In this document: positions 13,212-46,347 of the stretch, piece after piece
Layout of the letters: the number at the start of each line of letters is the position of its first letter
Position numbering within the stretch: the stretch's first letter is position 1
Source of the DNA: Phenylobacterium sp.
Lineage (GTDB): Bacteria > Pseudomonadota > Alphaproteobacteria > Caulobacterales > Caulobacteraceae
Direction of reading: 5' to 3'
DNA length: 51,679 bases
Assembly (NCBI RefSeq): GCF_030697305.1
Contig: NZ_JAUYQL010000063.1
Coordinates: 1-51,679 of the forward strand
The notes under the pieces: generated by a model
What the model saw: the letters and a program-made list of their open reading frames with translations, nothing else
Databases searched by the model: none
Told to the model about the DNA's origin: nothing
Program-made: the position numbers and the translations under genes

Positions 13212-15344
13212 CTAGGCGATCAGCGCCTGCGGCTCGGCGTCATCGGGCCGCTCCAGCTCATCCAGCGCCGCACAGAGCTTCTTGATGTCCAGCGGTTTGG
13301 CAAGAAAGGCGTCGAGGCCGGCGGCGATATACTCGGCCACCTGGTGCTTCATGGCGTTGGCGGTCAGGGCGAGGATGGGCGTGTGGCCGCCACGTTCGGC
13401 TTCCAGTTCGCGGATACGCCGGGTGGCGGAGATGCCGTCCATCTCCGGCATCTGGATGTCCATCAGGATCAGATCGAAAGACCCCGTATCCCACGCCTCG
13501 ACCGCCTCGCGGCCGTTCTCGACGATCACCGCGGTGAGGCCCAGCGACTGCAGCACAGTCTTCAGCACCAGTTGATTTGTCGGATTATCCTCGGCCGCGA
13601 GAATGCGCAGCGACCCGACCGGCGTGGCGGCCGGCGTCTGGGTGTCGTCAACCTGCGGCTCAGGACCAATCCATTCCAGTGGTAGTTCCAACGTGAACCT
13701 GGAGCCCTCACCGACGACGCTGGAGAGGGTAATCTCGCCGCCCATCAGCCTGGCGAGGTCCTGGGCGATCGCCAGGCCCAGGCCTGCGCCGCCAAAGCGC
13801 CGAGTGTGGGCGTCGTCGGCCTGAACGAACTTGGCGAACAGCCCGGACTGCAGATCGGCCGAGATCCCCGGACCAGTGTCGGTGACGCACAGGATGAGGC
13901 GGTGTGCGCCGTCCGCTTCGCGCGCCTCGATGGTCACGCCGACCCGCCCACGCTCGGTGAACTTCACTGCGTTGGACGCCAAGTTGTAGAAGATCTGCCG
14001 CAGCCGCGAGCAGTCGCCGCGCCACACGCCGCGGGCGCTGTCAGCGGTCTCCACCTCGAAAGCCAGGCCCTTGGCTTCGGCGAGCGCGGCGAAGGCCGCG
14101 CACGCGCCGCGCGCCATGTCGGCAAGATTGAACGGCGCCACCTCGAGCTCCAGTTTCCCGGTCTCGATCTTGGAGAGGTCGAGCACATCGTCGAGGATCG
14201 CCAGCAGCGCTTCGCCCGATTGGCGGATCACCGCGACACGGTCCTGTTCCTCAGCGGCGAGGTCGCCGCGCTGCAGCACCTGGGCCATGCCGAGGATGCC
14301 GTTCAGCGGCGTACGGATCTCGTGGCTCATGTTGGCCAGGAACTGGGATTTTGCGTGGTTGGCGGCCTGGGCCGCGTTGCGCGCCTGGACCAGATCGACC
14401 ATCGCGTGACGCAGCGAACGCAGGTTCATGCGAAGGGCGCCCATGGCCAGCAACAGTCCAAGGCCCAGGACGGCGGTCGCCGCGGTGACCATCGGCAGCG
14501 CTGCCGACAGCAGTTGGCGCCCGGGGCGCTGCGGCGTCCAGACTATAGTGGCGACGGTCGCGCCAGAGGGCGTGCGAAGCGCGGCATGGGCGAGGTCGGG
14601 GCCAAGCGCGGTCGCGCCGACGATCAGCTGCGGCTGTTCCAACAGATAGTGGGCCGACAGCTTGGCGAATGGGGCGTCGAACCGCACCGCGGTCACCAGC
14701 ACCGGCGCTCGGGCGCCTCGGGGCAGCACGGTCCCGAAGTCCGGCTGGATCAGCGTCGCGGTGACCAGATAGGGCGCGCCCCCGATGATCTGCGGCGTGC
14801 TGGCGCGGATCGGCGTCGAGATGACCTTTGTTCCGGTCGGGTCGGGCTTCAGCGCGCCGCGCGCCGCTTCCTGCTCGCGCAAAGCCCGCACCAGCGGGAT
14901 GGCGGCGCTGGTCAACGCCGTGAGCGATCGGGTCGGGACCTCGCGTCCGCCGGACATCGCGTAGAGGGGATCTCCTGAACCGGCGAAAACCACGGCGTTC
15001 TGCATCTTCACCGACTGATCGATGAAGGCGCCGATATTGGTCGACACCCATTCATGGTCGAAAGCGCCGTCGATATGCGCGACGGCCTCGTCCCACTGGG
15101 TGACGGATGTCAGGGAGTCTTCGATCTCGCGGATCTGCGAGCGGACGCCGTTCTCGACCAGCCGGATTTCCCGACCCTCGCTGATCACGTCCACCCGCGC
15201 CGACCAGAAGAACAGCGCGGCGAAGAGCAGGGCGACGGTCAGCAACCCTGCGCCCAGCGCCAGGGCGAACACCCGATTGGTCGTCCCTTCGCCGGAGATC
15301 GTTCCGTATCCGCGCCGCTCGGCGCCCAAGTGCAGGCTCGGCAT
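13212..15344 (-). CDS. CHASE4-type hybrid sensor histidine kinase/response regulator (copy 1)
   Basis: About 710 residues from ATG 15344 (preceded by GGCAGGA); a TTG at 15395 would add 17 residues. Numbering here is from the TTG. A transmembrane helix (about 42-64), a periplasmic CHASE4-like sensor (about 70-295; TQWDEAVAHIDG is typical) and a second transmembrane helix (about 300-320) precede a HisKA domain with H358 in NMSHEIRTPLNG. HATPase_c follows (N475, DTGPGIS, GGAGLGL) and a C-terminal receiver with phosphoacceptor D646 in LILMDIQMPEMDG. It should pass phosphate internally to the receiver; no Hpt protein or output regulator lies nearby. Its ligand is unknown. Confidence 0.93.
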   Translation of the reverse strand: MPSLHLGAERRGYGTISGEGTTNRVFALALGAGLLTVALLFAALFFWSARVDVISEGREIRLVENGVRSQIREIEDSLTSVTQWDEAVAHIDGAFDHEWVSTNIGAFIDQSVKMQNAVVFAGSGDPLYAMSGGREVPTRSLTALTSAAIPLVRALREQEAARGALKPDPTGTKVISTPIRASTPQIIGGAPYLVTATLIQPDFGTVLPRGARAPVLVTAVRFDAPFAKLSAHYLLEQPQLIVGATALGPDLAHAALRTPSGATVATIVWTPQRPGRQLLSAALPMVTAATAVLGLGLLLAMGALRMNLRSLRHAMVDLVQARNAAQAANHAKSQFLANMSHEIRTPLNGILGMAQVLQRGDLAAEEQDRVAVIRQSGEALLAILDDVLDLSKIETGKLELEVAPFNLADMARGACAAFAALAEAKGLAFEVETADSARGVWRGDCSRLRQIFYNLASNAVKFTERGRVGVTIEAREADGAHRLILCVTDTGPGISADLQSGLFAKFVQADDAHTRRFGGAGLGLAIAQDLARLMGGEITLSSVVGEGSRFTLELPLEWIGPEPQVDDTQTPAATPVGSLRILAAEDNPTNQLVLKTVLQSLGLTAVIVENGREAVEAWDTGSFDLILMDIQMPEMDGISATRRIRELEAERGGHTPILALTANAMKHQVAEYIAAGLDAFLAKPLDIKKLCAALDELERPDDAEPQALIA

Positions 15345-15599
15345 CAATCCTGCCCGTCGCCGCGATGGCTCGCGCGCGGATCTGATCCAAAGCAACTCAT
15401 CTGAACTGTCCCCGCGGCCGGCATGGGGTCCGGCTGCGGCGAGCTTAAGCGCGTCAAGGTTATCAGACCGTGCGCGAGACCCAGCTCAAGGTGTCGCAGC
15501 ACCGCGGTCAGGTTGTGCGCGTCCAGCCGCGAGCGCTGCGCCGCCGCGATCGGCGAGGCGGTCAAGCCCCGCGAAAACGCGTGGCGCGTGCCGACAGGT

Positions 15600-17741
15600 T
15601 CAGGCGACGTGTTGGCTGGAATTTGGCTCAGTCGTCACCGCGTCGTCCGCGTTGATCGCGTCCTGTATCGCGGACAGCAGGAGAGCGGCGTTGATCGGCT
15701 TGGCGACGAAGCCGTTCATCCCTGCAGCGAGGTAGCCCTCGATCTGATGGGTCATGGCGTTGGCCGAGAGCGCCAGGATCGGTGTCTGTGGACCAGCGCG
15801 CGCCGCTTCGATCGCCCGCATCGCCTGGGCGGCCTCCACGCCGTCCATCTCCGGCATCTGGATGTCCATCAGCACCACATCGAAGGCGCCTGCTTTGAAC
15901 GCGGCGACGGCTTCACGCCCGTCGGCGGCGAGCGTCAATTTGACGCCCAATGGCTCCAGCAGAGCCTGGAGGAGCATCTGATTGGTGGTGTTGTCGTCGG
16001 CCGCGAGGATCCGCACTGCGAGGTGTTCCGGCTCGGCGGGTCCATCCTTGCGCGCCGCCGAAGCCACAGCCGCCGATCCGCGGACAAGCGGCAGGGTAAG
16101 GGTGAAGGTCGAGCCGACGCCCTCCGTGCTGCTCACCGCCAGCGCCCCGCCCATCATCTCCACGAGCTCGCGACAGATCGAGAGGCCCAGGCCGGTGCCG
16201 CCGAAACGGCGCGTCACCGAGGCGTCGGCCTGGACGAACTTGCTGAACAACCGCGGCATGGAGTCCTTAGTTATGCCGAGGCCGGTGTCGCTGATGGTCA
16301 ATTGCAGGCCGCCGGGCGCGCAGGCGACTTCCACGCGGACACAGCCATGGTCGGTGAACTTGACGGCGTTGGAGGCGAGATTGCCGACGACCTGGCGAAT
16401 GCGCACCGCGTCGCCACGCCAGATCCCCAGCGCCGAAGGCTCGATCGCGATGTCGAACGCGACGTCCTTGCGGGCGGCGAGGCCTGCGAACGGCCGACAG
16501 ACGGCGTTGATCGTCTCCTCGAGGTCGAAATCGCCGGTTTCCAGCTCCATGCGGCCGGCCTCGATCTTCGACAGGTCGAGGATGTCGTTGAGCACGGCCA
16601 GCAGCGTCTCGCCGGAATCGCGCACGATCTTCAGCCGCTCGGCGTGCGGCGAACCCAGGTCGCTGCGCTCCAGCACCTGGACCATTCCCAAGACGCCGTT
16701 CAGCGGCGTGCGGATCTCGTGGCTCATGTTGGCGAGGAATTCGCTCTTGGCGCGGTTGGCGTCCTGGGCCGCGTCGCGGGCGCGCACCAAATCGGCGATC
16801 GCCTGCGAGAGGCTGGCTTCGTTTGCGTCGAGGCGCATGACGATGGAGCGAACTCGGAACGCCAGCGCCGTAGCGGCGGCCAGCAGCGCCAGGAAGCCCA
16901 TGACGATCACCGGCGCCGCGGAGCGCAGCACCTCGAGGCCCGGTCGATGCGCCTGCCAGGTGATGCTGCCGACGGCATGGCCGTTGATGTCGACGATCGG
17001 CAGCATGTCCTTGCCGGCCTGCGCCTGCGGCTGGATTGAGGCTTCCTGGACGCGTAGTTCCTGCTTCAGCGCTGACAGGAACTGGCCGTCCATGCGTTGG
17101 GCCGAGACCACGATGACGGCGGGGCCTGGGCGGCGCGGCGCGCTCCAGACTTCAGGCGTCACGGTGGATGCGGCGACGAGGTAGTAGTGTCCGCCGGACT
17201 TCAGGACGCCCCGCGTGGTGGTGGCGAGGCCCGGGTCGGTGGGCCTGCGGTCCTGGCTGGGGTGGCGGCTCCTCCGCTCGACCGCACGCATGCCGGTGAG
17301 CATCGGCCGTACGTCGAGCTCGAACTGGCGCATCGCCGCGGGCGCCGTGCGCCGGCCTTGTTCAAAAGCGTAGAAGGGTCGGTCGGCGCTGTCGAACACC
17401 ATGGTGCGGTCATGACCGCGGTTGTTGGCGAAGTAGGTGCCGATCTCGGCGTCCGCCCACTCCAGATCGCCGCCCGGCGAGAGCTTGGCGTAGGCCTGGT
17501 CCCAGACGCTCGCCGTGGTGATGTCCCTCGCCAGCCGCTCTTCCAGGCGCTCGAGCGTGCGCTGGACGAGGAAGCGTTCTTCCTGGGACTGCAGACGGTC
17601 CACGGCCGTGGAGGCGAGCGCCAGCATGGCGGCGCTCCCCAACAGCACGATGATCACGACAATCGCGCCCAGGCCGAGCAGCCGTCGCACATCGCGACGG
17701 CTCGCGCTGGGGTTTTCACTTATAGAGGTCAAACTTTGCAC
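15600..17741 (-). CDS. CHASE4-type hybrid sensor histidine kinase/response regulator (copy 2)
   Basis: A 713-residue paralogue of the next gene downstream with the same layout. Transmembrane helices are at about 21-45 and 274-296 and flank a CHASE4-like periplasmic sensor (VWDQAYAKLSPGGD). HisKA has H341 in NMSHEIRTPLNG, HATPase_c has NLASNAVKF and GGTGLGL, and the receiver has D626 in VVLMDIQMPEMDG. GTG 17741 has an AGGG SD with a 7-nt spacer. The sensor halves of the two kinases are far less alike than their kinase cores, so they probably sense different signals into related outputs. No dedicated effector is encoded beside them. Confidence 0.93.
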   Translation of the reverse strand: MQSLTSISENPSASRRDVRRLLGLGAIVVIIVLLGSAAMLALASTAVDRLQSQEERFLVQRTLERLEERLARDITTASVWDQAYAKLSPGGDLEWADAEIGTYFANNRGHDRTMVFDSADRPFYAFEQGRRTAPAAMRQFELDVRPMLTGMRAVERRSRHPSQDRRPTDPGLATTTRGVLKSGGHYYLVAASTVTPEVWSAPRRPGPAVIVVSAQRMDGQFLSALKQELRVQEASIQPQAQAGKDMLPIVDINGHAVGSITWQAHRPGLEVLRSAAPVIVMGFLALLAAATALAFRVRSIVMRLDANEASLSQAIADLVRARDAAQDANRAKSEFLANMSHEIRTPLNGVLGMVQVLERSDLGSPHAERLKIVRDSGETLLAVLNDILDLSKIEAGRMELETGDFDLEETINAVCRPFAGLAARKDVAFDIAIEPSALGIWRGDAVRIRQVVGNLASNAVKFTDHGCVRVEVACAPGGLQLTISDTGLGITKDSMPRLFSKFVQADASVTRRFGGTGLGLSICRELVEMMGGALAVSSTEGVGSTFTLTLPLVRGSAAVASAARKDGPAEPEHLAVRILAADDNTTNQMLLQALLEPLGVKLTLAADGREAVAAFKAGAFDVVLMDIQMPEMDGVEAAQAMRAIEAARAGPQTPILALSANAMTHQIEGYLAAGMNGFVAKPINAALLLSAIQDAINADDAVTTEPNSSQHVA

Positions 17742-28433: not shown

Positions 28434-28466
28434 ATGCAGGTTTCCAAGCCTGAACAGGGGTGGTGA
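28434..28466 (+). CDS. Ten-codon leader ORF coupled to ferredoxin reductase
   Basis: ATG 28434 begins the frame MQVSKPEQGW, ending in TGA at 28464-28466. The last A of that stop is the first base of the reductase ATG (a TGATG overlap). Together with the near-ideal SD upstream, this arrangement predicts termination-reinitiation coupling. The peptide has no recognised function. An alternative is that the first ten codons are the original reductase N terminus, separated by a small indel; the reductase already has a normal N terminus without them, which argues against this. Confidence 0.5.
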   Translation: MQVSKPEQGW

Positions 28467-29692
28467 TGCGCGACGTGAAATACCTGTTGATCGGGGGCGG
28501 CCTTGCCTCGATCCGAGCCGCGCAACAGATCCGCACCGTCGATACCGACGGCTCGATCCTGATCGCCTGCGACGAGCCGGTGCCCCCGTATGACCGGCCG
28601 CCGCTGTCGAAGGAATATCTGCAGGGCGTCAAGACGATCGATGAGATCTCGCTGGGCGACACAGAGCAGCTAGTGGGCCTGAAGGTTGAGTGCGCCCTGT
28701 CCCAGGAGGTCACCGCGATCGATCCCAAGGCCAAGACCGCGACCTTGGCCGGCGGTGAGCAGATCCACTACGAGAAGGCGATGATCGCCACAGGCGGTCG
28801 CCCAGTGCAGCTCGACCTGCCGGGCTCGAGCCTGACGGGCATCCATTATCTGCGCACCGCGGCGGACGCCGACGCCATCGCGGCGGCGGCTCAGCCCGGC
28901 CGTAAGGCGATCATCATCGGCGGCGGCTTCATCGGCCTGGAAGTGGCCGCGACCCTGCGCAAGCGCGACGTCGACGTGACGGTGATCGAGGCCCTGCCGC
29001 GCATCTGGGAACGGCTCGGCAACGCCGACCTCGCCGACTACGTCTCGGGCTACTGCACGGCCAAGGGCGTTAAGTTCCGCTACTCCACCCTGGTCAGCGA
29101 GTTCCGGGGCGAGGGGCGCGTCGACGCGGTGATCACCAATACCGGCGACGTTCTGGAATGCGATCTGGTCTGCATCGGCGTCGGCATCCGTCCAAACGTC
29201 GAATTGGCGTTGGCCGCGGGGCTGGAGGTCAACGACGGGATCATCGTCGACGAGAACATGCGCACCTCCGACCCGCACATCTACGCCGCCGGAGACGTGA
29301 CAAACTACTTCGACGCCCTGTTCCATCGCCGCCGTCGCGCGGAGCATTGGGGCCACGCCGAGCAGAGCGGCCGGGTCGCGGGCCTCAACATGGCCGGGGG
29401 CGCGGAGGTCTACGAGCTGTTGGCCTATGTGTGGTCGGACATCTTCGACATCCACCTGGAGTTCGCCGGCGACGAGCACGATCACGACGCCCAGGTGCGT
29501 CGTGGCGAGCTCGCCGACAACTCGTTCATGATCATGTACCTGAAGGAGGGTCGGGTGACCGCGTTCTTTGCGATCAACACCCCTGCACGCGAATATTCGA
29601 TCGTGCGGCGGATGATCATGAAGAAGACCGATCTGTCAGGGCGCGAGGCGCAACTCGCCGATCCCGCGGTCGGACTGCGCAGCCTGCTCTAG
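28466..29692 (+). CDS. FAD-dependent ferredoxin reductase-type oxidoreductase
   Basis: A 408-residue NAD(P)H:ferredoxin reductase of the oxygenase-partner type. FAD site GGGLAS near the N terminus, the family motif PPYDRPPLSKEYL, NAD site IIIGGGFIGLEVAATLRK, and the second FAD segment HIYAAGDV are all present; length is normal for the class. GTG-GTG-ATG lie in a row at 28460-28466; the ATG is preferred because AGGGG precedes it and it overlaps the leader stop. It faces the Rieske ferredoxin and ring-hydroxylating oxygenase genes across a terminator, so it most likely feeds electrons from NADH to that Rieske protein. Confidence 0.92.
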   Translation: MRDVKYLLIGGGLASIRAAQQIRTVDTDGSILIACDEPVPPYDRPPLSKEYLQGVKTIDEISLGDTEQLVGLKVECALSQEVTAIDPKAKTATLAGGEQIHYEKAMIATGGRPVQLDLPGSSLTGIHYLRTAADADAIAAAAQPGRKAIIIGGGFIGLEVAATLRKRDVDVTVIEALPRIWERLGNADLADYVSGYCTAKGVKFRYSTLVSEFRGEGRVDAVITNTGDVLECDLVCIGVGIRPNVELALAAGLEVNDGIIVDENMRTSDPHIYAAGDVTNYFDALFHRRRRAEHWGHAEQSGRVAGLNMAGGAEVYELLAYVWSDIFDIHLEFAGDEHDHDAQVRRGELADNSFMIMYLKEGRVTAFFAINTPAREYSIVRRMIMKKTDLSGREAQLADPAVGLRSLL

Positions 29693-29712
29693 CGGGCTGT
29701 CCGACCCAGACA

Positions 29713-29742
29713 AAAGGCGCCCCTGGTGACAGGGGCGCCTTT
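29713..29742. terminator. Bidirectional rho-independent terminator
   Basis: A perfect 13-bp stem (AAAGGCGCCCCTG with its complement) with a GTGA loop, A-rich on its left and T-rich on its right. It lies between the convergent reductase (ends 29692) and Rieske gene (ends 29768) and should end both transcripts. Confidence 0.92.
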
Positions 29743-29767
29743 CTTCATTCCAGCGATGCGGCGCCTG

Positions 29768-30361
29768 TCAGGCGGGATCGGGGCCGGCGGCGGAGACCAC
29801 GCCCTGTTTGAGGGCGGCTTCGCTGACCTTGATCTCGATATCGTCGCCGACGATCCGCAGATCGAACATCGGGATGTCGGCGGTGGCCAGCAAGGTCAGG
29901 GCCTTGCCGGTGCGCACGTCCCAGCGGCCGGCGTGCCACGGGCATTCGACGATGCAGCCTTCCAGGAAGCCTTCGCCGATCGGGCCGGCGGCGTGCGGGC
30001 AGACATTGCCGAACGCATAGAAATTGCCTTCCGCATTGGCGATCACCACCAGGTCGTGGAAGACGATCTTCATATCCTCCTCGGCGATCTCCGAGGTCTT
30101 GGCGACCTTGATGAAGTCGGTCGGCAGACTGGAAATGGTCACTTTGCCGTCGTCGCGCTTGTCGACGTTGTCGATCCACTCCTGGGGGTCCTCGCCGAAG
30201 TACTTGGCGAGCCGCTTGGAGGTGTTCTCGTTCGGAATGGCCGTGCCGGCGATGAAGGTGTTCAGACGCGAACGCTCCAGGGCGAGCTGGCGCGCGACGG
30301 TGTCGACGTTCACGCCCTTCTCAGCCATGGCTTTCGTCAGTCTGTCAGTTAGCCAAGTCAT
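29768..30361 (-). CDS. HTH (XRE-like) - Rieske [2Fe-2S] ferredoxin fusion
   Basis: A 197-residue protein. Residues about 75-180 are a Rieske ferredoxin domain with all four ligands: C121 and H123 (NVCPHAAGP), C140 and H143 (ECPWHAGRWD). This is the electron carrier expected for the neighbouring ring-hydroxylating oxygenase and FAD reductase. Unlike ordinary ferredoxins of about 105 residues, it has an N-terminal helical domain (1-65) resembling an XRE/HigA-type helix-turn-helix: VDTVARQLALERSRLNTFIAG, then SKRLAKYFGEDPQEW. ATG 30361 has a GGGGAGG SD, so the fusion is translated as one chain. It may be a redox-sensing regulator, or the HTH may be a docking module. Confidence 0.85.
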   Translation of the reverse strand: MTWLTDRLTKAMAEKGVNVDTVARQLALERSRLNTFIAGTAIPNENTSKRLAKYFGEDPQEWIDNVDKRDDGKVTISSLPTDFIKVAKTSEIAEEDMKIVFHDLVVIANAEGNFYAFGNVCPHAAGPIGEGFLEGCIVECPWHAGRWDVRTGKALTLLATADIPMFDLRIVGDDIEIKVSEAALKQGVVSAAGPDPA

Positions 30362-30472
30362 AGGCCTCCCCTGGTGGATTGAGGTTACTCAGGTCGCGCG
30401 GACCCTACTGTCGTTGATGGTGTCTAGGATACCGATCAGCCTGCACTTAACAGAAGCGCACGAGCCTGTCGC

Positions 30473-30492
30473 CCCGCCTTGCTCCAGGCGGG
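30473..30492 (-). terminator. Weak stem-loop between SDR and Rieske genes
   Basis: A 7-bp stem (CCCGCCT with AGGCGGG) and a 6-nt loop, 22 bp after the SDR stop on the minus strand. No T-run follows, so it is more likely an attenuator or mRNA 3'-end element than a full terminator. Confidence 0.4.
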
Positions 30493-30513
30493 AACACTCA
30501 GGCTTTCAGCGTT

Positions 30514-31347
30514 TCAGCGCGCGCCCGCCGGCTGCAGCGAGGCGCTCCAGGCCGGCGGATTGATCTCCGCGTAGCGCTGCAGGGTGGCGGCGTCCGAGAG
30601 CTCACGGATGATTTCGGCGTCGGTCTTGACGTTGCCGGTGTAGGTGTCGGCGGTCTGCATGGCGAGCAGCACGGCCGCGTCCAGGTAGCTGTAGGCCGGC
30701 GTCAGGTCGCTGGGCTTTACTTCGCTGTTCAGCAACACGCCCGGGGTGTCGACGAAACCGAAGGGGCGCAGGCTGTTCACCGCCACGCCGTCCACCTTCA
30801 GCTCGTCGGCCAGTCCGATGGTCAGCGTCTCCATCGCCGCCTTGGTCGCCTCCAGCGGTGAGCCGCGGGTGCGGGAGCGTCCCGAGACGTTGATGATGTT
30901 GCCGAAGCGCTTGGCCTGCATGGCCGGCAGGACGGCGCGGATCACGTGGAAGGCCGCCAGCACGTTGACCTGCAGCATCTGGTCGAAAAGGCGCAGCGGT
31001 ATGCCGGCGACGCCTTCACCTTCCGGCATCACATAGGCGGCGTTGTTGAGCAGCACGTCGATGCGGCCCCAACGGTCGAGCACCTGGTCGACCATGCTCT
31101 CCACGGCCGCTTCGTCGGTCACGTCGCAGACGATCGCCAAGGCCTGGCCGCCGGTGAACTCCTCGATCGCCTCGGCCGTCTGGAAGACGGTGCCGGGCAG
31201 GCGCATCGGATTCTCTTTGGCGTTACGCCCCACCACGACGACCTTGGCCCCCTCGGCGGCGTACATCATGGCGCAGTGCTGACCGAGCCCTCGGCTGGCT
31301 CCGGTGACGATAGCGACCTTGCCGGCCAGTCTTGGCGCGCGCTGCAT
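30514..31347 (-). CDS. SDR family protein lacking the catalytic Tyr
   Basis: A 277-residue short-chain dehydrogenase-like protein. The cofactor motif TGASRGLG (15-22), NNAAYV (101-106), N128 and S155 in INVSGRS are intact, but the YxxxK motif reads LEATK: Leu165 replaces the catalytic Tyr while K169 is kept. The codon is CTG, read directly at about 30853. It is positioned where a cis-dihydrodiol dehydrogenase is expected, between oxygenase beta subunit and ferredoxin. Either it uses another acid or it has lost dehydrogenase activity and has another role. ATG 31347 has a weak AGGA SD. An unusual 40-residue C-terminal extension follows the fold. Confidence 0.85.
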   Translation of the reverse strand: MQRAPRLAGKVAIVTGASRGLGQHCAMMYAAEGAKVVVVGRNAKENPMRLPGTVFQTAEAIEEFTGGQALAIVCDVTDEAAVESMVDQVLDRWGRIDVLLNNAAYVMPEGEGVAGIPLRLFDQMLQVNVLAAFHVIRAVLPAMQAKRFGNIINVSGRSRTRGSPLEATKAAMETLTIGLADELKVDGVAVNSLRPFGFVDTPGVLLNSEVKPSDLTPAYSYLDAAVLLAMQTADTYTGNVKTDAEIIRELSDAATLQRYAEINPPAWSASLQPAGAR

Positions 31348-32038: not shown

Positions 32039-33358
32039 CTAGTCGCCAGTGTACTCGGCGTGTTGTCCGGTGGTGAGGCGGGCCTCCCATTCGCGCCAGA
32101 AGACGCGCATCTGCAACTCGGTGGGACCGCCTTTGGTGTTGCCCTTCATGCCGCGCGAGATGTCCGACCACTCGACTTCCTTGTGGGTCGCAAACCCCAT
32201 CTGGCAGCCTTCGAGGCCTTCGACGTCGTCCGGGGTGGCGAAGCCGCCCGGACCCTGGAAGCCCAGGTACCAGTCGAGGCGCGCCTTGCGCAGTCCAGGC
32301 GAGTCCTCCTTCGGCATGGCCGCCCAACCGCTGATCTCCATGTAGTCCGGGCTGGTCGGATAGAAGGTGCGGAATACGCACCAGCCGTCGATGATCAGCA
32401 GGTTCGGGAAGATCAGGTAGTTGCCGGCCCGCCCTTCGATCATCCGGGCGTTCTCATCGCCGTGTTTCTTCACCAGCCCCTCGCGGAACTGCTCAAGCTC
32501 GGCCCCGGCGAACTTCTCCAGATACGAGGCCTGCCCGCTGATAGGCCGGTCGCTGGTCGGCCATGCGGTCGTCACATGGCCGTTGCCCATCGGTTGCGCG
32601 CCGCGCCGCTTGCCGTCATTCGGCGGCGTCGGTTGAGGGGTCATCGGCCCACCACCGCCACCCAGGCCCATGCTGGGCAGCCAATGGGTGAAGAAGCGCT
32701 CGTGGGTGAAGGCGGCGTGGTAGCCGTCCATGCTGTTCTCGACGAGTAGCTTCCAGTTGGCCCGCATCGAATATTTGAAGTGGCCTTCGACGAACTCCAT
32801 GTCGCCGAGGTTCAGCGTGTTGTCGATGACCATGAGCGCGTCGGGCCCCATGTAGGACTCGAAGTCCTCCATGTCGGGATCGAAGCTGATGAAGATACAG
32901 CCGCGGTGGTTGTGCATCTTGGGCGCCGGCTCAAGGCCCAGGGATTCACGGTCGAACGCTTCGCTATAGGCCTCTTCGCCCGGGATGCCTTTCAGCTCGC
33001 CGCGCGTGTTGTAGATCCAGCCATGGTAGAAGCAGCGGAACACCTCGGCGTTCGAGCCCTTGTGCTCGCGGCACACCAGATTCCCCCGGTGACGGCAGGT
33101 GTTCATCAGCGCGCGGATCTCGCCGTCATCGCTGGTCACCAGGATGATCGGCCGGCCGCCGACGTTACGGGTGATGAAGTCGCCGGGCTTGGGGAACTCC
33201 GAGATGTGGCCGGCGAACAGCCAGGACTTGTCGAAGATCCGCTCGCGTTCGAGTTTCAGGATGTCGTCGTCGATGAATGCGCTGCGATGAACCCGGAAGA
33301 TCCCGGATTCCCGGTCATCGATGATCAGACCCGCTGCATTGCCACCAAAATCCGGCAT
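32039..33358 (-). CDS. Aromatic-ring-hydroxylating oxygenase alpha subunit (copy A)
   Basis: A 439-residue catalytic subunit. Rieske ligands C88, H90, C109 and H112; the mononuclear iron site is ENSMDGYHAAFTHE with D211, H214 and H219, and the third ligand is expected at D377 or D378 in ATPDDVEG. It should dioxygenate an aromatic ring using electrons from the ferredoxin/reductase pair at 28.5-30.4 kb. The ORF is open further upstream, but ATG 33358 has a GGAGGAGG SD with a 5-nt spacer and matches the start of copy B at 42559. First gene of the operon alpha-beta-SDR-ferredoxin. Substrate is unknown; likely a benzoate- or p-cumate-like acid. Confidence 0.94.
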   Translation of the reverse strand: MPDFGGNAAGLIIDDRESGIFRVHRSAFIDDDILKLERERIFDKSWLFAGHISEFPKPGDFITRNVGGRPIILVTSDDGEIRALMNTCRHRGNLVCREHKGSNAEVFRCFYHGWIYNTRGELKGIPGEEAYSEAFDRESLGLEPAPKMHNHRGCIFISFDPDMEDFESYMGPDALMVIDNTLNLGDMEFVEGHFKYSMRANWKLLVENSMDGYHAAFTHERFFTHWLPSMGLGGGGGPMTPQPTPPNDGKRRGAQPMGNGHVTTAWPTSDRPISGQASYLEKFAGAELEQFREGLVKKHGDENARMIEGRAGNYLIFPNLLIIDGWCVFRTFYPTSPDYMEISGWAAMPKEDSPGLRKARLDWYLGFQGPGGFATPDDVEGLEGCQMGFATHKEVEWSDISRGMKGNTKGGPTELQMRVFWREWEARLTTGQHAEYTGD

Positions 33359-33808
33359 TGACGCCTCCTCCATCGCTGCGCACGCGCCAGCGTTGATCTC
33401 GCTTTGGTCACACTCCTTGCGGAGCGGCCATATCATTGGCGACGGAGACATGAGCCCGGCTAGTGAAAAGGGGTGTCCAGCGCTGCGCGCCGACCCACGA
33501 TCCTGCGCCTTGCGCCGTTCGACGCCGGAACAGTCATGGGATGCGGAGTGCGCGCCGGCCAACGTCTCCTCCTGGCCGGTCATGACTCGTCGACGCTCTG
33601 CGGCGTCGTTCGCCTCACCGGAGCATAGCTTTCGACAATGGTTGGACCATTGTCAATAACCTTCGCGTTCACGTAGCGTCAAAGGAGCGCGAACGTATGG
33701 GGCAAAGACCGCAGGCAGGATCACCCCTGCGGCTCAGCCAGGCACTTGCCGGCGGGTCGCCGCCGCATCACAGTCAGCGCACGACTGTGCAAATTGGAGC
33801 CCGAGGGA
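33359..33808. other. Divergent intergenic region between oxygenase A and crotonase genes
   Basis: A 450-bp stretch with no supported gene. It holds the SD of oxygenase A and, at 33634-33654, a perfect inverted repeat that could control both directions. The in-frame open extension of the oxygenase gene upstream of 33358 is not supported by an SD and is absent from copy B. Confidence 0.7.
33634..33654. promoter_or_regulatory. Operator candidate: 9-bp inverted repeat (AATGG-N5-CCATT type)
   Basis: GACAATGGT and its exact complement ACCATTGTC are separated by TGG. Reduced to its core it is AATGG-N5-CCATT. It lies between the divergent oxygenase A and crotonase genes. Related cores occur at 35734-35748 and 42729-42743. 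The layout TGGTnnnACCA resembles sites of FadR-subfamily GntR regulators such as PdhR and LldR; no GntR gene is in the window. Confidence 0.6.
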
Positions 33809-41245: not shown

Positions 41246-42559
41246 CTAGTCGTCGGTGGTTTCCGCGTGCTGACCGGTGGTCAGTCGCGCGTTCCATTCA
41301 CGCCAGAACACGCGCATCTGCAGCTCGCCCGGGCCGCCTTTGACGTTGCCGTTCATCCCGCGCGAGATGTCCGACCACTCGACTTCCTTGTGGGTCGCGA
41401 AACCCATCTGGCAGCCTTCGAGGCCTTCCACGTCGTCGGGCGTCGCGAAGCCGCCCGGACCCTGGAAACCCAGGTACCATTCGAGACGCGCCTTACGCAG
41501 GGCGGGGGTGTCTTCCTTGGGCATGGCCGCCCAGCCGTTGATCTCCATGTAGTCCGTGCTCGTGGGGTAGAAGGTGCGGAACACGAACCAGCCGTCGATG
41601 ATGATCAGGTTGGGGAAGATCAGGTAGTTGCCGGCGCCGCCTTCGATCATGCGGGCCTTTTCCGGTCCATGACCGTCGACCAGGAACTTGCGGTACGCCG
41701 CGAATTCCTCAGGCGCGTACTTCTCAAGGTACGGCGTGGCCACGCCGCCGAGGCGCGCTGCCGTCGGCAGGCTGCCGGTCACGTGGCCGTTGCCAAGCGG
41801 AACCGCGCCGATGCGCGCGTTGCCCACCTGAACCGACTCATCCATCGGCTGGGGACCGCCGCCCAGGCCGACGCTGGGCATCCATTGGGCGAAGAAGCGC
41901 TCGTGCGTGAAGGCGGCGTGGTAGCCGTCCATGCTGTTCTCGACGAGCAGCTTCCAGTTGGCCCGCATCGAATATTTGAAGTGGCCTTCGACGAACTCCA
42001 TGTCGCCCTTGTCCATCGTGTTGGCGATGACGCCTAGCGCGGCTTCGCCCATGTACGACTCGAACTCTTCAATGTCGGGGTCGAAGCTGATGAAGATCAG
42101 ACCACGGAAGTTATGCATCCGCGGGGCCGGCTCCAGGCCCAGGGATTCACGGTCGAAGGCTTCGCTGTAGGCTTCTTCGCCCGGAATGCCCTTGAGCTCG
42201 CCGCGGGTGTTGTAGATCCACCCATGGTAGAAACAGCGGAAGACCTCTGCGCCCGATCCCTTGTGCTCGCGACAGACCAGATTGCCGCGGTGGCGGCAGG
42301 TGTTCATCAGCGCGCGGATCTCTCCGTCGTCGCTGGTCACGAGGATGATCGGACGTCCAGCCACCGTGCGAGTGATGAAGTCGCCGGGCTTGGGGAATTC
42401 CGACACGTGGCCGGCGAACAGCCAGGCCTTGTCGAAGATCCGCTCACGCTCCAGCTTCAGGATGTCGTCGTCCACGAACGCCGAACGGTGCACCCGGAAG
42501 ATGCCGGATTCCTTGTCATCGATAATGAGACCGGCGGTGTTTTCACCAAAATCTGGCAT
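41246..42559 (-). CDS. Aromatic-ring-hydroxylating oxygenase alpha subunit (copy B)
   Basis: A 437-residue paralogue of the oxygenase alpha at 32039-33358, with identical key residues: Rieske C88/H90/C109/H112 and iron-site D211, H214, H219. ATG 42559 has a GAGGAGGAAT SD. The two differ most at about 225-290, after the His ligands, where the substrate pocket is expected, suggesting different substrate ranges. No beta subunit, ferredoxin or reductase is encoded beside it, so it probably borrows those of copy A. It lies near a second hydrolase and an MFS transporter. Confidence 0.93.
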   Translation of the reverse strand: MPDFGENTAGLIIDDKESGIFRVHRSAFVDDDILKLERERIFDKAWLFAGHVSEFPKPGDFITRTVAGRPIILVTSDDGEIRALMNTCRHRGNLVCREHKGSGAEVFRCFYHGWIYNTRGELKGIPGEEAYSEAFDRESLGLEPAPRMHNFRGLIFISFDPDIEEFESYMGEAALGVIANTMDKGDMEFVEGHFKYSMRANWKLLVENSMDGYHAAFTHERFFAQWMPSVGLGGGPQPMDESVQVGNARIGAVPLGNGHVTGSLPTAARLGGVATPYLEKYAPEEFAAYRKFLVDGHGPEKARMIEGGAGNYLIFPNLIIIDGWFVFRTFYPTSTDYMEINGWAAMPKEDTPALRKARLEWYLGFQGPGGFATPDDVEGLEGCQMGFATHKEVEWSDISRGMNGNVKGGPGELQMRVFWREWNARLTTGQHAETTDD

Positions 42560-45563: not shown

Positions 45564-46316
45564 TCAGTGCGGCGGGGTCGCTTCGAGCGCCGCGATCCGC
45601 CCGCGCATTTCCGACAGGATGCTGTCGCGCTGCTCTTCGAGCTGGTGGGCGTGGATCGCCACGCCGAGCGCAAAGGTGCGTCCGTAGCGGCTTCCGGGCA
45701 GCAGCATCGACAGCACGGCGCTGTCGGGTATCGGCATGTTGACGGTGATCATGTAGCCCTCGCGCCGCGCGAATTCGATCTGTTCGATAATCTTGCAGTA
45801 GTCGACCGGCTCGGCCGCAGCCTTGGCGTAGTTGATGTGATGGCAGATGCGCTTGATCTCCTTGTCGGAGTGCTCGCTGAGCAGCATCAGGCCGACGCCG
45901 GACGCCGCCAGCGGGCGCAGCGTCCCGGGCGCCGCCTCAAAGTGCAGCAGCGGTTGCTCGGCCACGGTGTGGATGTATTGCGCCGAAAGCCCGCTCTGGG
46001 TCGCCAGGATCACCACCTGACCGGTCGCCGCGTGCAGGTCCTTCATCAGCCGCAGGATCTCGCCGTCGCCGAACAGTGCCGCCTCCACCCACAGGCCGAG
46101 ATGGGCGATCCGCATGGTCGGCAGGTAGGTGCGGGACTTGACGTTGAAGTCGAGGTAGCCGAGCGAGACCAGGCTCTTAAGCAGGGCCGAACCGCTGGAC
46201 GGCGCGTATCCGAACTCCTCGCAGATCGACTTCAGCGACAGCGGCCGGCGCTCGCGATCGAACATCTCGAAGATGGCGAAGGCGCGCTGGGTCGACTTGA
46301 CGACCGCCCCGGCCAT
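45564..46316 (-). CDS. IclR family transcriptional regulator
   Basis: About 250 residues. The N-terminal winged HTH (AFAIFEMFDRERRPLSLKSI, then APSSGSALLKSLVSLGYL) is followed by the IclR ligand domain (about 80-245; LAASGVGLMLLSEHSD, YMITVNMPIPDSAVLSMLLPG). IclR proteins commonly sense aromatic acids or their catabolites and control degradation operons. ATG 46316 is preferred to the adjacent TTG at 46319. Matching inverted repeats occur 31 bp upstream of its start and in the spacer after its stop. It probably controls itself, the VOC dioxygenase gene and hydrolase B. Confidence 0.93.
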   Translation of the reverse strand: MAGAVVKSTQRAFAIFEMFDRERRPLSLKSICEEFGYAPSSGSALLKSLVSLGYLDFNVKSRTYLPTMRIAHLGLWVEAALFGDGEILRLMKDLHAATGQVVILATQSGLSAQYIHTVAEQPLLHFEAAPGTLRPLAASGVGLMLLSEHSDKEIKRICHHINYAKAAAEPVDYCKIIEQIEFARREGYMITVNMPIPDSAVLSMLLPGSRYGRTFALGVAIHAHQLEEQRDSILSEMRGRIAALEATPPH

Positions 46317-46347
46317 CAACCCACCATCCCAGGCGTACGCGCCGCGA

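Follow-up and report, generated by a model that had tools for sequence, protein, structure and literature searches.

A helix-turn-helix domain fused to an oxygenase-type Rieske ferredoxin in Phenylobacterium: an electron carrier that may also regulate its own gene

A gene in the 51,679-nucleotide stretch of Phenylobacterium sp. DNA analyzed here (the window) joins an XRE/HigA-like helix-turn-helix (HTH) domain to a complete Rieske ferredoxin of the type that serves ring-hydroxylating oxygenases. Sequence comparisons indicate that this fusion is genuine, under selection and apparently very rare. We favor the reading that its product is a bifunctional ferredoxin, at once an electron carrier and a negative autoregulator, and give this a probability of about 0.45.

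The fusion ORF lies on the minus strand, with its ATG at 30361 and a stop codon ending at 29768, and a well-placed Shine-Dalgarno-like run (GGGGAGG) stands immediately 5' of the ATG. The encoded protein has a mass of 21.4 kDa. Its Rieske part extends over about residues 82–180 and matches the Pfam Rieske profile at residues 84–165 (E 1.9e-14; 53.8 bits against a cut-off of 20.3). A reading of this DNA from its sequence alone had described a complete Rieske domain with ligands C121, H123, C140 and H143, and all four are present in the expected CxH...CxxH arrangement. The HTH extends over about residues 3–69. When the whole chain was scanned, the HTH_19 match (residues 7–67, E 2.4e-6, 27.8 bits) and the HTH_26 match (20.3 bits) fell below their cut-offs of 30.2 and 22; with residues 1–80 alone both came narrowly above them, at 30.5 and 23.1 bits. 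The chain is thus unlike stand-alone oxygenase ferredoxins, which have about 105 residues (103–109 among the PDB entries matched) and no HTH: it has 197 residues, with an N-terminal extension of about 80 that contains the HTH, in both of the genomes in which it was found. The unusual architecture claimed by the sequence-only reading is therefore upheld.

That reading had assigned the HTH by pattern, and profile, structure model and a stand-alone homologue in the same genome now all back the assignment. As modeled by AlphaFold2 from the domain alone, the N-terminal region is a five-helix XRE bundle (helices 3–15, 19–25, 30–37, 45–54 and 59–69; mean pLDDT 80.6); 11 of the 13 rows in the underlying alignment are known-type HTH proteins, which may favor an HTH fold. 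The full-length model gives the HTH at low confidence, and just two of its eight alignment rows cover it. In Foldseek and VIA-align searches the domain model comes closest to structures of HigA antitoxins and repressors, several of which were determined in complex with operator DNA, and HigA proteins are the top VIA-align neighbors. The VIA-align neighbors also include cyanase (6xgt), RodZ (2wus) and methylphosphonate synthase (MPnS; 6b9s), whose XRE domains have roles other than gene regulation. An earlier PDB profile search was set aside because its alignment contained a HigA row and was biased; with an alignment free of HigA rows, the HTH matched 3trb (E 6.8e-5) and nothing else under E 0.4. 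The Rieske half matches the PDB ferredoxins 5bok, 3dqy and 2qpz by sequence, and resembles the ferredoxins of 3-nitrotoluene, toluene, naphthalene and biphenyl dioxygenases in both sequence and fold (Foldseek); the first strand of its fold comprises residues 84–88 in the full-length model.

The same 197-residue fusion, with 97% amino acid identity, is encoded by a separately assembled genome, Phenylobacterium sp. MAG C18 (L031 in our locus numbering, G467 in our genome numbering). The neighbors match too, with the SDR gene before the fusion gene and the reductase gene after it, and the region is 95.3% identical to the window over 7.9 kb. Between the two genomes, the 12 changes in HTH codons 1–72 divide into about 9.5 synonymous and 2.5 non-synonymous (dS 0.217, dN 0.015), a departure from neutrality with a binomial P of 2e-5 if two changes are counted as non-synonymous and 2e-4 if three are. 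Rieske codons 83–182 carry 11 synonymous and two non-synonymous changes (dS 0.178, dN 0.009). The ten linker codons, 73–82, have four synonymous and two non-synonymous changes (P 0.05, on six changes). As far as one genome pair can tell, both the HTH and the Rieske domain are maintained as protein by purifying selection.

The two halves have separate relatives. The window genome (G000) also encodes a stand-alone HTH protein of 108 residues (L039:188-514, contig C44) that is 56% identical to fusion residues 1–72, and the similarity stops at R69-D70-D71. The closest stand-alone ferredoxin found (L084, 103 residues) is 52% identical to the Rieske part, and its third residue aligns with fusion residue 82, which places its start at residue 80. 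With the HTH homologue ending at about R69–D71 and the ferredoxin starting at residue 80, the comparison indicates a complete HTH module joined cleanly in front of a complete ferredoxin module. Residues 22–32, which run from the last part of helix 2 through the turn into helix 3, are identical to the stand-alone HTH at 11 of 11 positions against 29 of 61 elsewhere (P 8e-4, for a stretch picked after viewing the alignment). Only three of the eight residues of modeled helix 3 are identical, so that DNA specificity would differ between the two proteins. R30, S31 and N34 of the fusion align with what we take to be DNA-facing positions in 434 Cro. As a separate observation, the stand-alone HTH gene lies at the edge of contig C44 directly 3' of an rpoD-like 3' end, while a complete rpoD-like ORF is found on C104 (names assigned by eye); C44 perhaps holds a second sigma factor copy, accompanied by a small regulator of its own. 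Further in, C44 is 95–96% identical to the MAG C18 genome over 7.4 kb and so belongs to the lineage; the MAG contig begins later than the position of the HTH gene.

The sequence-only reading had placed the fusion beside oxygenase and reductase genes, and Pfam matches agree (Table 1). The alpha, beta and SDR genes are on the same strand as the fusion gene, and the reductase gene is convergent to it. The alpha ORF continues to 33583, and part of this extension (33362–33583) differs by 11% and a 2-bp indel between the genomes; the start is probably at 33361 rather than 33583. The symmetric hairpin between the convergent genes, which has undergone a paired T-A to C-G change between the two genomes, is likely to be a bidirectional terminator. 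Up to 50.7 kb the cluster also holds an extradiol dioxygenase, two C-C hydrolase-like genes, a flavin monooxygenase and the second alpha gene, gene content that points to aromatic catabolism as the setting. On a Pseudosulfitobacter plasmid the gene order is reductase, alpha, beta, SDR, a 108-residue stand-alone ferredoxin and a TetR regulator, and by comparison the fusion gene occupies the ferredoxin slot of the operon. The plasmid ferredoxin is just 37% identical to the fusion over 78 residues, which suggests that the fused gene may have replaced a native ferredoxin gene.

Table 1. Features of the window in and around the fusion gene
Feature	Coordinates	Strand	Basis or properties
HTH-Rieske ferredoxin fusion gene	29768..30361	-	197 aa; ORF, Pfam, same fusion in L031
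XRE/HigA-like HTH domain (codons 1-72)	30146..30361	-	Pfam HTH_19/HTH_26, stand-alone homologue L039:188-514, AF2 domain model, Foldseek, VIA-align
Linker (codons 73-82)	30116..30145	-	Changes vs L031; pLDDT <50 at 71-79 in domain model
Complete Rieske [2Fe-2S] ferredoxin domain (codons 83-182)	29816..30115	-	Pfam, PDB sequence matches, Foldseek, L084 ferredoxin
Conserved region before fusion gene (candidate promoter/operator/leader)	30362..30459	-	98 bp
GC-rich hairpin after SDR gene, no T run	30457..30513	-	Fold -29.6 kcal/mol, z -2.4; 6/200 shuffles fold as well
SDR dehydrogenase (likely cis-diol dehydrogenase; role inferred from position)	30514..31347	-	Pfam adh_short
Oxygenase beta subunit, sole one found in window genome	31441..31953	-	Pfam Ring_hydroxyl_B; single match in G000
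Oxygenase alpha subunit	32039..33361	-	Pfam Rieske + Ring_hydroxyl_A
Perfect 9+9 palindrome GACAATGGT-N3-ACCATTGTC upstream of alpha	33634..33654	.	One window match vs 0.01 expected
Second, paralogous oxygenase alpha subunit	41246..42559	-	Pfam; 82% identity
Ferredoxin reductase	28460..29692	+	Pfam; top NCBIfam scores AndAa/HcaD, below their cut-offs
Hairpin between convergent reductase and fusion genes	29712..29743	.	Fold -27.2 kcal/mol, z -6.5; symmetric

Of ten Rieske matches in the window genome, only the fusion is an oxygenase-type ferredoxin; the count covers Rieske-type matches in an assembly that is 93% complete. Four of the others are the paralogous alpha subunits, the three outside this operon being 82, 78 and 72% identical to its alpha (41246–42559 and contigs C93 and C100). 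Judged by eye, two more are N-terminal parts of single-chain-oxygenase-like proteins of 363 and 439 residues (C80, C131), and the remainder are a NirD-like protein (C57, next to a NirB-like frame), a Rieske protein of the cytochrome bc1 type (C112, next to a cytochrome-b-like frame) and a Rieske protein of 160 residues (C29, next to a gpsA-like frame). As the sole oxygenase-type ferredoxin alongside four alpha subunits and one beta subunit, the fusion very likely carries electrons between the adjacent reductase and the oxygenase(s). Its Rieske domain would thus be a working carrier, passing electrons from reductase to ring-hydroxylating oxygenase, and probably common to all four alpha paralogues.

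The DNA before the fusion gene has features of its own. The SDR and fusion genes are 152 bp apart here, whereas the SDR and ferredoxin genes on the Pseudosulfitobacter plasmid overlap by 4 bp. The 98 bp next to the fusion start show three differences between the two genomes against 11 in the adjoining 54 bp (Fisher P 7e-4, with the boundary set after viewing the alignment), a pattern of conservation that fits a promoter or operator. Within these 98 bp there are no palindromes beyond chance (two with 4-bp arms against 2.6 expected, none with 5-bp arms), the promoter scan found nothing close to the fusion start, and Rfam gave no match at gathering scores. The hairpin after the SDR gene has a counterpart in MAG C18 (z −2.5; two of 200 shuffles as good) and is not among the calls of the terminator scan. 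The second DNA target proposed in the sequence-only reading, 33359–33808, does contain a conserved perfect palindrome, identical in MAG C18 and with no second match within three mismatches in the window genome. Its TGGT-N3-ACCA core is similar to GntR/FadR-family sites. The palindrome is therefore a candidate operator of another regulator, at least as likely as a site for the fusion, and the oxygenase promoter may well be under that regulator's control.

How, then, might the HTH act? We infer that the XRE domain most likely binds DNA before its own gene, giving negative autoregulation. Among 21 ORFs of at least 90 residues between 17.8 and 45.5 kb, selected by length and composition and scanned with Pfam, none but the fusion has a DNA-binding domain (two had no match; regulators shorter than 90 residues or outside the selection escape such a scan). 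The next regulators along the window are an IclR-type gene at 45564–46319 and two hybrid histidine kinases at 13212–17741. The autoregulator reading is favored by the presence of the fusion in two separately assembled genomes, purifying selection on its HTH, HigA and repressor structures as nearest neighbors, the strong conservation of helix 2, turn and helix 3 start relative to the stand-alone HTH, and the gene's own conserved upstream stretch. Coupling to catalysis could occur by titration, as in a trigger enzyme of the PutA type: ferredoxin docked to oxygenase or reductase in turnover would be unavailable to DNA, idle ferredoxin would repress, and the redox state of the Rieske cluster might tune docking. 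The linker is short, poorly ordered and changeable, which speaks against tight allosteric wiring between the cluster and the HTH.

A close rival, and a serious one, is that the HTH has a structural or docking role, as an add-on for dimerization, stability or protein binding, the protein being simply an oxygenase ferredoxin. The XRE domains of cyanase, RodZ and MPnS show what such an add-on could be, and purifying selection cannot separate DNA binding from a structural role. The lack of a clear operator, with no palindrome beyond chance before the fusion gene, likewise favors an add-on and counts against autoregulation. A further point against autoregulation is that the palindrome before the oxygenase is possibly another regulator's. 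Charge also counts against autoregulation: the HTH is slightly acidic (residues 1–72, pI 5.3 and charge −1.5; residues 1–70, charge −0.5) and the Rieske part strongly so (−8.8), but five of 11 phage repressor and HigA HTHs taken as yardsticks are negatively charged too. The acidic HTH likewise favors an add-on. An add-on is harder to reconcile with a best-conserved stretch that falls on helix 2, turn and helix 3 start, with HigA proteins as top structural neighbors, and with a conserved region upstream of the fusion gene itself.

More doubtful is the fuller proposal that the ferredoxin is a transcription factor reporting electron flow to DNA, one that would repress when idle or reduced, leave DNA during turnover, and so form the control point of a ferredoxin common to several oxygenases. 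The sequence-only reading had likewise suggested that the protein could report flux or redox state to DNA. Improbable, in our view, is a dedicated Rieske-based transcription factor whose cluster would serve only as redox sensor, with the oxygenases fed by another, for example plant-type, ferredoxin. A precedent for such feeding is the Phenylobacterium immobile oxygenase PpoC11, which accepted either of two pairs of redox partners in E. coli, one containing a plant-type ferredoxin (PMC7907043); against a sensor-only role, the fusion's Rieske domain retains all ligands, the ferredoxin fold and purifying selection, and its gene sits in the ferredoxin slot of the operon.

It is very improbable that translation begins internally and yields an ordinary ferredoxin, leaving the HTH part untranslated or as a separate product. 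Potential internal starts do exist in both genomes, GTG at codon 74 and ATG at codon 97, with a GAGGAGGA run directly before the ATG; but no Shine-Dalgarno-like run precedes codon 74, the GAGGAGGA run is too near its ATG, and a start at codon 97 would remove the first Rieske strand. The first ATG has a well-placed run instead, and the HTH codons are under purifying selection in frame with the ferredoxin. An assembly chimera or frameshift, including a sequencing error that masks a separate upstream gene, can be all but dismissed: MAG C18 is itself a MAG and the window genome is fragmented (136 contigs), but the same junction with the same neighbors in two genomes about 95% identical here contradicts it.

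With the HTH part alone as query, the fusion was found in two of 101 genomes of the genus, the window genome and MAG C18. It was confirmed in no further genome or record among the samples searched: 60 relatives, 398 genomes of the order (E ≤1e-9), 385 of the class (E ≤1e-12), 72,556 plasmid records and 50,697 phage records. Matches to the fusion were obtained in 34 of the 385 class genomes; leaving aside the window genome itself, none of the other 33 has a match that starts before query residue 71. A peptide-pattern scan of one genome per species across 84,980 species, which reaches close relatives only, yielded 37 stretches and eight relatives, one of them with the HTH. HTH-Rieske fusions built on an unrelated HTH could be overlooked by all of these searches. 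Three order-level matches start at query residues 40–49, two of them with two internal stop codons each (G120, G185) and one in a 705-residue frame (G281). The plasmid search matched 179 records; among the 25 listed, some appeared to extend into the HTH half and were rejected as fusions. In H1, H2 and H17 the annotated gene starts at or slightly before the Rieske part; in H1, H2, H6 and H9 the frames before that part hold nothing HTH-like by eye; and H3, H4, H5, H12 and H13 span two annotated genes. Separately, a Thermoflexales MAG encodes a 545-residue protein (L035:2767-4404) with, by eye, a seemingly protoglobin-like N-terminus and three Rieske-like segments. No HTH-Rieske fusion was found in the titles and abstract openings of papers listed from the open-licence PMC literature, and searches there on enzymes with HTH domains gave no papers.

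Each half of the protein thus has familiar counterparts. The Rieske ferredoxins of three-component oxygenases (BphA3 and those for toluene, naphthalene and 3-nitrotoluene) are alike in fold, ligands and gene neighbors. HigA/VapI-type XRE proteins (3trb, 2icp, 6chv) have the HTH fold in common with the fusion; unlike HigA, the fusion scores just 18.2 bits with NCBIfam TIGR02607 (cut-off 47.7), and its gene adjoins SDR and reductase genes rather than one for a HigB-like toxin. The Phenylobacterium immobile pyrazon oxygenase system has 19 alpha subunits, one beta subunit and two small ferredoxins, according to PMC7907043 and PMC4432328. Many alphas, a single beta and ferredoxins common to the oxygenases (PMC7907043) recall the four alphas and one beta of the window genome; the two P. 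immobile ferredoxins, of 11.6 and 12.7 kDa, are too small to be the 21.4-kDa fusion. In G435, putatively P. immobile, long alpha-like matches are 33–36% identical and shorter ones 29–45%.

The best functional analogue is PutA, a trifunctional redox protein of catabolism that carries a DNA-binding domain at its N-terminus and whose regulatory action is reported in PMC5293562. Like PutA, the fusion would switch between DNA and its place of work. PutA combines a ribbon-helix-helix domain with a flavoenzyme, whereas the fusion, as seen in sequence and models, combines an HTH with an iron-sulfur electron carrier. In SoxR, IscR, NsrR and RirA, a redox-active Fe-S cluster and an HTH also share one chain. 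Their HTH families and cluster ligation are different, however, the fusion being a ferredoxin with two histidine ligands, and it has no MerR or Rrf2 Pfam match up to E 0.1. We know of no electron-carrier job for any of these four proteins; to our knowledge, DNA-binding Fe-S proteins are dedicated sensors and oxygenase ferredoxins dedicated carriers. Nor do we know of an earlier regulator built on a Rieske cluster, and none was met in our searches.

If the ferredoxin is a transcription factor, it would be, as far as we know, the first Rieske-cluster regulator. If one chain does both jobs, expression could follow the actual electron flux through the catabolic enzyme instead of its substrate. Being a plain pair of modules, the design is easy to test and could be borrowed as a genetically encoded flux sensor. 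Should the HTH turn out to be structural, the fusion would still be an unusual way to organize a single ferredoxin serving several oxygenases.
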